Shown piece after piece: positions 43,481 to 48,913 of a stretch of DNA of 54,245 nt (positions within the stretch are counted from its first letter, which is position 1; every line of letters starts with the position of its first letter). The position numbers and the translations under genes are program-made. The stretch lies in the NCBI GenBank assembly GCA_949292025.1, contig CASEYC010000123.1:1-54245 (forward strand), in the 5' to 3' direction. Origin of the DNA: an uncultured Bacteroides sp. Its GTDB lineage: Bacteria > Bacteroidota > Bacteroidia > Bacteroidales > Bacteroidaceae. Under the pieces are notes generated by a model. That model was given only the letters and a program-made list of their open reading frames with translations. It made no database searches and was not told the origin of the DNA.

Positions 43481-43930
43481 TTAGGTGGTTTCCTGCGGTT
43501 CTTCTTTATCCGCTTTGTCCGCGTGGCGCATTCTCCAAATGAGGTAAAGGAGGAAACACCACCCGGCAAAGGACAAAGGCCCGACAATCCAATCCAGCCA
43601 ATGCGGGTCGCCCAAGAATAGCTTCTCATATTGGAAAAAGGCTTGCCGCACCAGGATGAGGAGGCAGGCAAGCAGTGCCACCGTATGGTAGAAGCGGAAT
43701 CTGCCGGGCCGGTGGGGTTGCAATGCCTTGAGGACGCAGCAGACGACGGCCGTCACAAATACCACACTCTTCACGGCGGTGAAGGCCGTGTGCCACCAGG
43801 GGGCGGCGTTGCGGAGATTGTCTATCGTGGTAAGTATGGCTTCGGCTCCCGCCACCGCGCTGATCAGAAAAGCCAGCACCAGCACCGTGTCGATGGTGAG
43901 GCTGAAGTGTCGGAAACGGAATGTCTTCAT
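43481..43930 (-). CDS. Four-helix membrane protein of unknown function
   Basis: A 149-residue protein with about four hydrophobic segments (VLVLAFLISAVAGAEAIL; AVKSVVFVTAVVCCVLKAL; VALLACLLILVRQAFF; WIVGPLSFAGWCFLLYLIW) and a charged C-terminus ending EEPQETT. Gap to the next gene is 16 bp. Together with the two neighbouring small membrane genes it forms a membrane-protein cluster upstream of fic. No family recognised. Confidence 0.6.
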   Translation of the reverse strand: MKTFRFRHFSLTIDTVLVLAFLISAVAGAEAILTTIDNLRNAAPWWHTAFTAVKSVVFVTAVVCCVLKALQPHRPGRFRFYHTVALLACLLILVRQAFFQYEKLFLGDPHWLDWIVGPLSFAGWCFLLYLIWRMRHADKADKEEPQETT

Positions 43931-45922: not shown

Positions 45923-46783
45923 TCAGACGGCCAAATCCAATGGCAGGTCGCTGATGTCTTTCAGCCGTTTCCCTTGTATAAGGATGTTTAATAGTTCGAT
46001 GGAATCTTCTGCCTGCGCATCGTTGACGGCTTCAATCAGTTCGTACAAGGCAAAGTGATAGAGGCAGTCAATGTCTCCTGTCCCCATGGCCAGGGAGGCT
46101 AAGCGTGCCGGCATGGGTTCTCCTGTCACGACCACGATGTGCGGCAGCCGTCCCTTGCGGTTGCGGATGAGTCCCAATGCTTCCGTGCGGCTGTTTTGCG
46201 CCCGGTCGCTGCGCATGGTCCATTTGGCAGAGATGGAAGCATGGAGGATGGGCAACCCGCCGTTGCTCTTGCGGAGGTCTGCCAGCCGGGCTATGTCATT
46301 GTCCACAACAAGCGAGGCGGCATTGATGGCCTCGTCCGTTTCTGTTTCCCGATAAATGACCACGTCCGGTGCCACCATGTAGTCGTTGCCCATGCTTGCG
46401 GCCAGCCGTGCATCGCTTTTGGTCAGTTGGTTCAGGTATTCCAAGTGCTCGTATTGTGCGAAGCTGCTTGCCTTGACGGCATTGCGGTTTCCGAGTTTGA
46501 CAATATGCCATTTGCCGGGGCGCAGGTTTCCCAGGTGGGGAAATGTATCGTTCAGGAAATCCATGTTTATTTGTTCGAACTTGGCGCCCGATGTCTGCCC
46601 CACGGCTTTCTCATGCACTTCCGCCATGAGCCGTTTGGCTATGCCTTGGGCAATGCGTACAGAAAGTTTGGATGAACTGTCCGCGTTGCTGGGGATGCCC
46701 TTGCCGTCCATGGTCAATACGCCGTTAGACAGCAGCTCTTGATGATACTTCTTTCTTGCTTCTGCTATGAGTGCATTGTTCAT
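45923..46783 (-). CDS. NgoMIV-like restriction endonuclease (predicted GCCGGC)
   Basis: A 286-residue protein, the length I recall for NgoMIV. The variant active site P-D-(x46)-K-(x13)-E is complete: D140 in VAPDVVIY, K187 in ISAKWTMRSD and E201 in SRTEALGLI, plus E70 in AKFEQ, at the positions described for NgoMIV. The expected target is GCCGGC, cut as a tetramer with two Mg ions per site. Start 46783 (MNNALIAEAR). It overlaps the upstream methyltransferase gene by 59 bp. Confidence 0.88.
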   Translation of the reverse strand: MNNALIAEARKKYHQELLSNGVLTMDGKGIPSNADSSSKLSVRIAQGIAKRLMAEVHEKAVGQTSGAKFEQINMDFLNDTFPHLGNLRPGKWHIVKLGNRNAVKASSFAQYEHLEYLNQLTKSDARLAASMGNDYMVAPDVVIYRETETDEAINAASLVVDNDIARLADLRKSNGGLPILHASISAKWTMRSDRAQNSRTEALGLIRNRKGRLPHIVVVTGEPMPARLASLAMGTGDIDCLYHFALYELIEAVNDAQAEDSIELLNILIQGKRLKDISDLPLDLAV

Positions 46784-48029
46784 AATCCAATACTTTTTTG
46801 ATTTGCAAACCAATGTTCATGGCCACGGGTGGCGGGAAGGCGTTGCCTATCATGCGGCAAGCGGTCGTTTTCCTTTTCCCGAAATCCCAGTCGTCCGGAA
46901 AGCCTTGCAGGCGTGCCAGCATCCGTGGGGTAAGCCTCGGCATGCCTTCAAAATCCGGGGCGGGGGCTTCGTTGGCCACGCCCCTTCCGTCCACTCCCAG
47001 TTCGGCCCATGCCTTTCTGGCCCGCGTGGGCCCCAAGTCCGGGCCCCCATGCTTTTTGCTTCCGCCCACGAGGGTGGGGGCTATCCTGTCTGCTTTCTGT
47101 TTCCATTCAGCAGCTTGTTCCCAACCGTTGGCAGCCATCAGGTCGAAGAGCGTTTCGCCCACCGTGGGTGTTTTCTCCGGTTGTTTGCCGGGGAAGGTGA
47201 AGATGTCTGTCAGGTCTTTCCGGAGGCCGACGATGACCACCCGTGGACGCAGCTGAGGCACGCCATAATCGGAAGCATTCAGCAATTGGATGTGCGGGCG
47301 GTATCCCAAATGCTCCAGCCTTTCCAGTATGCCCTTCCTGTACGCATCGAACTTGGGGTCCAACAACCCGCGGACATTTTCTATCATCACCGCCCTTGGA
47401 TTGATTTCATGCACCAGCCGGAGCATTTGCGGGAACAGGTCGCGTTCATCGTCTGCCCCCAGCTGCTTGCCAGCCACACTGAACGGGGGGCAAGGCACTC
47501 CGCCTGCCAGCAGGTCTATCTGTCCCCGGTAGGGCTTTCCATCGAAGTGATGGACATCCAGGCATTGTATGTCCCATTGCGGGCGGTTGCGCTTCAGGCA
47601 TTCGCAATAGTCTTTTTCGTATTCCACCAATGTCGTATGGCAGAAACCTGCCATTTCAAGTCCCAAAGCTTGTCCGCCGGCACCGGCACATATCTCAATG
47701 GAATGGTATCTTTTTGCCAATGAATTATCTTTATCGTAAATCAATATCTTTTCCCCGGACGCGTTGCCTGCCGCGAACGGCAGCAGGCAATCATCCTCCA
47801 CCAGGTCCACCGTCCGCTTCAGCAGCTTGCCCAGGGCGGTGGCGATGCGCGAGATGGTCAGCAACGTCACGCGCTCGCCCTCGGCGTATTGCACCAGGAT
47901 GTCGATGTCGCTCCCCGGCTGCTCCTCGCCCCGCGAGCACGAGCCGAACAGCCAGGCCCGCTTGACAGGCTGGCCCGACAAGTAGGACTGGATCTTGGGG
48001 ATGAGGAGGCGGATTTCGTTGCTAATCAT
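46725..48029 (-). CDS. MNT nucleotidyltransferase fused to C5-cytosine DNA methyltransferase
   Basis: A 434-residue two-part protein. Residues 1-100 are a complete MNT-type nucleotidyltransferase: LFGSCSRGEEQPGSDIDIL with metal Asps 41 and 43, a third Asp in RTVDLVED and the usual ending KILIY. Residues ~105-420 are a DNA-cytosine C5 methyltransferase: SIEICAGAGGQALGLE (SAM), GGVPCPPFS (catalytic Cys), MIENVRG, a recognition domain, then ARLQGFPDDW and MIGNAFPPPVA. A TTG at 47718-47720 near the junction could be a separate methyltransferase start. It should protect GCCGGC for the downstream endonuclease. Confidence 0.85.
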   Translation of the reverse strand: MISNEIRLLIPKIQSYLSGQPVKRAWLFGSCSRGEEQPGSDIDILVQYAEGERVTLLTISRIATALGKLLKRTVDLVEDDCLLPFAAGNASGEKILIYDKDNSLAKRYHSIEICAGAGGQALGLEMAGFCHTTLVEYEKDYCECLKRNRPQWDIQCLDVHHFDGKPYRGQIDLLAGGVPCPPFSVAGKQLGADDERDLFPQMLRLVHEINPRAVMIENVRGLLDPKFDAYRKGILERLEHLGYRPHIQLLNASDYGVPQLRPRVVIVGLRKDLTDIFTFPGKQPEKTPTVGETLFDLMAANGWEQAAEWKQKADRIAPTLVGGSKKHGGPDLGPTRARKAWAELGVDGRGVANEAPAPDFEGMPRLTPRMLARLQGFPDDWDFGKRKTTACRMIGNAFPPPVAMNIGLQIKKVLDYEQCTHSRSKKEVSSRAAV

Positions 48030-48511: not shown

Positions 48512-48633
48512 AATCTTCTCTTTTATAGTTGGTTAATACGTACTGAGGCTTCCCGATGACCGTCCCCGCAGGAGGAAGAGGCGGCCTTGTCTCTGCCAAG
48601 AGGCGGTCTTTGTACTGGCATAAGCATACGAAA

Positions 48634-48731
48634 AAGCCTTTTTCGTTGCAAATATAAGCCTTTTTCGTCAGACTAACAAGCCTTTTTGGTAGAATGAATA
48701 AGCCTTTTTAGTAAAATAAACAAGCCTTTTT
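48634..48731 (-). repeat. Five AAGCCTTTTT boxes at exact 22 bp spacing (operator array)
   Basis: Boxes at 48634, 48656, 48678, 48700 and 48722 are identical (AAAAAGGCTT on the - strand); the 12 bp between them vary. 22 bp is two helical turns, so bound proteins would sit on one DNA face. On the - strand box 2 abuts the -7 element and box 3 supplies the CTTG at -33. A sixth copy, AAAAAGGC, lies in + orientation at 48897-48904 next to the divergent -7 box. Box 1 forms a palindrome CGAAAAAGCCTTTTTCG. Confidence 0.92.
48649..48656 (-). promoter_or_regulatory. -7 element of the HU-like gene
   Basis: TATATTTG on the - strand, preceded by AAAAAGGCT and, 20 bp upstream, by CTTG of the third array box. 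It reads AAAAAGGCTTATATTTGC, near-identical to the divergent promoter. Confidence 0.7.
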
Positions 48732-48784
48732 AGCGGGCTTTTCCTACTGGCACGACATCCTCTTCCCAGTGCCTTGGCCGCCTC

Positions 48785-48815
48785 TTGCCGCTTTGCCGGG
48801 GAATGCGTACCTTTG
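48785..48815 (+). promoter_or_regulatory. Upstream candidate promoter of the lipoprotein gene
   Basis: TTG (48785-48787) and TACCTTTG (48808-48815) are spaced 20 bp, ~130 bp before the gene. It lacks the AAAAAGGC box. Confidence 0.45.
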
Positions 48816-48881
48816 TGCCGGTTAAACGATAAATAGACTGGCGGAAAAATGCGGCCGGGCGAGAACAATAAAGGGGAAAAC

Positions 48882-48913
48882 TTTGTTTCTTTGAGTAAAA
48901 AGGCATATATTTG
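48882..48913 (+). promoter_or_regulatory. Promoter of the lipoprotein gene with AAAAAGGC box
   Basis: TTTG (48882-48885) and TATATTTG (48906-48913) are spaced 20 bp; AAAAAGGC (48897-48904) fills the spacer just before -7. AAAAAGGCATATATTTGC matches the HU-like promoter (AAAAAGGCTTATATTTGC). Confidence 0.7.

Follow-up and report, generated by a model that had tools for sequence, protein, structure and literature searches.

The phased array of short boxes upstream of the HU-HIG gene is probably a cooperative autoregulatory operator of the HU-HIG protein encoded beside it, and similar arrays dispersed over the genome may be additional sites for that protein (probability about 0.7, judged from sequence comparison). 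The window is the whole stretch of DNA analysed, 54,245 nucleotides from an uncultured Bacteroides sp. The HU-like protein is the likely ligand because the boxes follow the gene (22 of 23 loci), the arrays of its paralogs differ, and the half-sites co-vary. The first-pass annotation had proposed such a ligand for an operator-like phased array on its own promoter; the comparisons of orthologs, paralogs and half-sites support this proposal, with binding as its predicted part.

The array and its neighbouring genes

The protein of the window scored 63.7 bits against PF18291, for which the Pfam gathering score is 26.2, and it belongs to the HU-HIG family. It falls within the broader HU/IHF group; phmmer gave weak matches to the Thermotoga HU entries 1b8z and 1riy (E 4e-4 and 5.5e-4), and its structure was predicted with low confidence only (pLDDT 61). 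The signal motif of the divergently encoded protein is presumably that of a lipoprotein. Downstream of the HU-HIG gene lies a restriction-modification pair (window positions 45923-48029), composed of an NgoMIV-type nuclease (PF09015) and a C5 methylase (PF00145), the latter sharing one ORF with a preceding nucleotidyltransferase-like Polbeta domain. At the matching locus of genome G015 (L109) the flanks align and the pair is absent. The coordinates of the features are listed in Table 1.

Table 1. Features of the HU-HIG promoter region in the window.
Feature	Coordinates	Strand	Remark
HU-HIG family DNA-binding protein, 140 aa	48089..48511	-	PF18291, E 2.1e-17
Left outer units, weaker 22-bp phase	48568..48633 (about)	.	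inverted relative to right units
Box 1, AAGCCTT	48634..48640	+	core of palindromic site; at the presumed HU-HIG transcription start
TATATTTG, -7-like element of predicted HU-HIG promoter	48649..48656	-	
Box 2, AAGCCTT	48656..48662	+	first base common with -7 element
Box 3, AAGCCTT	48678..48684	+	
Box 4, AAGCCTT	48700..48706	+	
Box 5, AAGCCTT	48722..48728	+	
Right outer units, weaker 22-bp phase	48732..48809 (about)	.	
AAAAAGGCATATATTTG of lipoprotein promoter ("sixth box")	48897..48913	+	not counted in array
Divergent gene, 365 aa	48940..50037	+	no Pfam match; lipoprotein-like signal judged by eye

Six exact matches to AAGCCTTTTT were found in the window, where 0.11 were expected from shuffles. 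Five of them start at 48634, 48656, 48678, 48700 and 48722, a pitch of exactly 22 bp over the span 48634-48731, and the sixth lies away from the array at 43635. The description of five identical boxes at exact 22-bp intervals was verified in both coordinates and pitch. Box 2 had also been said to touch the -7 element, and base 48656 is indeed common to it and to the minus-strand TATATTTG (48656-48649). A TTG composed of the end of box 3 plus one further base ends 20 nt before TATATTTG; we take TANNTTTG and TTG to be the Bacteroidetes promoter motifs. The boxes overlap the predicted promoter of the adjoining HU-HIG gene, as an autoregulatory operator should.

The consensus of the box family is an odd palindrome, ACGAAWAAGSCTTWTTCGT, which consists of AAGSCTT plus flanks and has S at its centre. 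When 18 elements were pooled, the 22-bp phase extended outward in weaker and more G+C-rich units, the information per unit falling from 21.3 to 9.1, 6.0 and 3.0 bits and then to about 2. The arms of the window copy are 62% alike over 66 bp. Neither the outer units on the two flanks nor the other genome copies of the family had been mentioned in the earlier note. A CRISPR array was ruled out, as the cores are 7 bp long and the spacers have a common palindromic consensus; the scanned neighbour genes gave no match to cas genes.

The string beside the lipoprotein gene had been described as a sixth box in an operator common to the two divergent promoters. AAAAAGGCATATATTTG is present at that position; its core AAGGCAT is one base off AAGSCTT and follows box 5 at 178 bp, start to start, a distance that is not a multiple of 22, so that it is a lone, out-of-phase match and no member of the array. 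The nearest species (L176) retains it, and it is missing from the two more distant loci that carry this gene pair, L177 and L178. With the wrong phase, and with conservation only in the nearest species examined, the common operator is unsupported, although the string might still be bound by the protein. AAAAAGGCNTATATTTG was tried as a regulon marker and gave 32 places at no more than 2 mismatches versus 4 for the reversed control; many of the matches share the promoter motif TATMTTTG, and therefore this search cannot tell a regulon from promoter background.

Boxes at HU-HIG orthologs and paralogs

The protein search revealed 20 genomes with a best HU-HIG match of at least 51% identity, a cut chosen after a gap in the match list was visible. 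Upstream of these best ortholog loci, at least three boxes at 22 bp were present in 18 and at least two in 19. Second copies of at least 51% identity (G166, G147 and G015) all had at least four boxes; over all 23 such loci, at least three AAGSCTT boxes occur at 22 bp in 21 and at least two in 22. The second copies of G147 and G015 (55-56% identity) keep AAGSCTT and have the spacers TTRGAG...CTCTAA, and two HU-HIG genes of one genome thus have the same core and different flanks. The box plus the -7 element, AAGSCTTATATTTG, was found at 10 of the 20 best loci, and five boxes with different spacers lie between the same two genes in L177 (G061). The five-box operator of L186 (G138) is enclosed by long arms that appear by eye as near-perfect inverted repeats. 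The operator has only two boxes in G015 and one in L190, with dispersed arrays present in both genomes; G015 keeps many of them despite its two-box operator, for which the preferred explanation gives no account.

Three-box arrays occurred in 19 of the 20 genomes with an ortholog versus 18 of 137 others, a comparison that is partly circular in that the operator itself is counted. Some of the matches in the 18 genomes without a detected ortholog are of other spacer types. G004 (L265), G105 (L251) and G079 (L246) carry 22-bp AAGSCTT boxes with other spacers, and no close ortholog was detected in them; these arrays possibly belong to other HU-HIG paralogs.

HU-HIG matches are numerous, with 29 in the own genome and up to 41 per genome among 41 genomes. 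For the own genome 28 of the 29 could be assessed for periodicity, one having only 54 bases upstream. A 22- or 23-bp phased array lies upstream of 18 of these 28 genes (period 22 in 12 and 23 in 6, with 31-39 of 44 bases repeating); the remaining 10 are without one, and L214 among them repeats at 21 and 28. None of 106 upstream regions of other ORFs had an array (maximum 26 at 22/23; 22 or 23 best in 2), and in random windows period 22 was best in 21 of 1,863, with a maximum of 26 (of 44) at that period. The unit sequence varies from paralog to paralog. The consensus units have dyad symmetry at 5 to 8 of 8 pairs, which is soft evidence because a circular unit easily yields some symmetry. The motif of L231, the one paralog motif examined for dispersal, occurs only at its own promoter, and the idea that arrays are generally dispersed was dropped. 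Two of the own-genome matches (L235 and L237) contain an in-frame stop and could be decayed copies.

Other unit sequences were also found at the next 10 loci of the match list (43-48% identity), which are nearer paralogs in other genomes, with period 22 in all 10. For other genomes, 29 best PF18291 matches were considered, of which 27 had upstream sequence of sufficient length; period 22 was best or joint-best in 15 of the 27, and at least 30 of 44 bases were reached at period 22 in 6 only and at period 21 in 1. No published account of phased arrays at HU-HIG paralogs was found in a literature search that missed most subscription journals.

Dispersed arrays and their half-sites

A search of the own genome for two AAGCCTT at 22 bp revealed arrays on a further seven contigs, which makes 8 with the window. 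The first-pass annotation had named a lack of further occurrences in relatives as evidence against its proposal; boxes were found in relatives. The hosts are uncultured Bacteroides, Candidatus Bacteroides pullicola, merdigallinarum and merdipullorum, Mediterranea sp. An20, and a Phocaeicola bin. The spacer type TTCGT...ACGAA of the window's clade was detected in 11 of 158 genus genomes at no more than 1 mismatch, and in 6 of 61 relatives at no more than 3 mismatches, four of these weakly. Three boxes with any spacer occur in 37 of 157 genus genomes (no more than 1 mismatch), a few of which match the reversed control too. Within the order, exact three-box matches were limited to 3 of 393 genomes, the own genome included, and in one of the two others the control matches exceed the true ones. 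A 22-bp repeat containing AAGCCTT (L267:1046-1600) lies directly 3' of an HU-like gene in G517, which belongs to a different family within the order.

Together with those from other genomes and from named contigs, the arrays numbered 42; L171, a Flavobacterium match that is a lone terminator-like hairpin, was removed before the counts, which left 41. These elements form 22 locus groups, one link resting on a short match, and z-scores that assume independent elements are therefore too high. Four or five boxes are present in 34 of the 41. Arms are more alike within an element than between elements (e.g. 0.497 versus 0.356 for the first outer unit), which indicates that many copies are long imperfect inverted repeats; the arms vary widely in strength, from 0.20 to 0.83. 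The exact two-box pattern had no match in viral contigs, where a phage element was sought.

These properties could also be explained by a dispersed intergenic repeat of about 240 bp (REP/BIME- or MITE-like) that merely includes the HU-HIG promoter and has no specific reader. The eight intergenic arrays of the own genome are as numerous as such a repeat would predict, and the long imperfect inverted repeats fit it as well. In G015 an array-bearing stretch of 240 bp occurs at two loci (L103:4405-4642 and L105:4059-4296) in copies that are 93% alike, as if copied or converted. A -7-like TANNTTTG, sought across each array with a margin of 30 bp ahead of its first box and 60 bp past its last, was found at 5 of 6 HU-adjacent arrays versus 1 of 35 dispersed ones, the other 34 being without it. 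A preference for gene orientation was sought and is absent, with convergent neighbours at 3 of the 38 arrays that have both neighbours versus 7 of 58 other intergenic gaps (p 0.74). However, a mere repeat leaves unexplained both the upstream boxes kept by orthologs of many species and the 22- and 23-bp arrays of other sequence at HU-HIG paralogs, and we consider it unlikely.

The half-sites of operator and dispersed arrays of the same genome tend to match, with exceptions. The TTCGT half-site is typical of the window's clade, CTTTT of G041, TATA of G138, and TAAT of G066, G047, G018, G022, G087 and G118. In 16 of the 20 ortholog genomes, the own-genome similarity was 0.728 versus 0.484 when permuted, with none of 50,000 permutations at or above it; G015 and G143 (operator of fewer than three boxes), G120 (no three-box match) and G168 (operator only) were left out, and the sampling of dispersed arrays is partial in several genomes, e.g. 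3 in G147 of 39 three-box matches. With 7 class representatives, which were chosen once the classes had been seen, the result is 1 of 5,040. In only 5 of the 16 genomes does the own operator take first rank, because close relatives have one site type in common. Misfits are G061 (rank 11) and two of the three G167 dispersed arrays. The co-variation gives support, not proof, to a single reader of both kinds of site, as shared ancestry remains in the comparison.

A regulator other than the HU-HIG protein might also bind the operators, as many dimeric regulators fit palindromic boxes and binding by the HU-HIG protein is itself predicted. The paralog units differ at the same pitch, however, so that a separate matching outside regulator would be needed for each, which makes this explanation decidedly improbable. 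Still less probable is that the element works as RNA, through a long hairpin in transcripts. In its favour, L108 folds much better than shuffles (z -11.1), the mean z of the 41 elements, from 25 shuffles each, is -5.4 on one strand and -5.9 on the other, and several paralog arrays lie between a -7-like site and the start codon and may be transcribed. Against it, folding of the window copy is weak (z -1.4 and -2.1), most of its boxes are upstream of the expected transcription start, and wobble-type mismatches favour neither strand overall (275 to 301; 79 to 76 among the 13 elements that match best), with uneven counts in single elements (heterogeneity 82 on 41) and orthologs counted repeatedly. 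The absence of an overall strand preference in folding and wobble counts points to DNA.

Proposed mechanism and comparison with known systems

For the autoregulatory operator, we infer that HU-HIG dimers bind the palindromic sites about two helical turns apart, and adjacent sites on nearly the same face of the helix would allow cooperative binding. Occupancy would cover the -7 element and repress the HU-HIG gene, and the protein might thus limit its own level. The dispersed arrays would be extra sites of the same protein, perhaps structural; since nearly all are without a -7-like element, it is more likely that they titrate the protein or organise the chromosome than that they act as classical operators. 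A broader reading, which we regard as slightly short of probable, is that the HU-HIG proteins of Bacteroides and relatives are a self-addressing family with many paralogs in a genome, in which each paralog is specific for its own 22- or 23-bp phased palindromic array on its own promoter and the array and protein co-evolve. The address of at least one member might then have spread over the chromosome as long inverted-repeat elements and formed a lineage-specific, sequence-addressed chromosome-organising system.

Bacteroides-type genomes carry many HU-HIG matches, and the family is large and little described. Should every one of these proteins recognise its own array, the sequence preceding each gene would reveal the binding site, which would give ready EMSA and ChIP targets across the family. 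The family would also offer a natural series on how HU-type proteins acquire and alter sequence specificity, and a route to asking which paralogs act elsewhere on the chromosome.

REP/BIME and MITE-like repeats are intergenic, palindromic, modular and present in several copies, as are the arrays described here; the arrays differ from them in the fixed 22-bp phase, the 4 or 5 boxes in most elements, and the linkage to one gene family. The iterons of plasmid origins are phased repeats of about 22 bp with the reader protein encoded alongside, and here, too, such repeats lie next to the gene of the putative reader; unlike iterons, the arrays are chromosomal, have symmetric boxes and lie on a promoter. 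BldC is likewise a small DNA-binding protein, which forms cooperative multimers on direct repeats (PMC5859096), the cooperativity of HU-HIG being predicted; unlike HU-HIG, BldC is MerR-like, and the available part of that paper mentions no paralog family in which every member has an array to itself. According to the available part of PMC3969353, canonical HU is largely non-specific and structure-preferring, E. coli HU contributes to the negative regulation of its own genes, and the HU protein PG0121 of P. gingivalis favours an inverted repeat of 77 bp over control DNA. The HU-HIG system resembles E. coli hupA and PG0121 as described there in the HU type of its protein, in inverted repeats that lie in or close to promoters, and in HU genes under negative regulation by HU (predicted in the present case); it differs from them in having several short palindromes at a fixed 22-bp pitch, which differ between paralogs.
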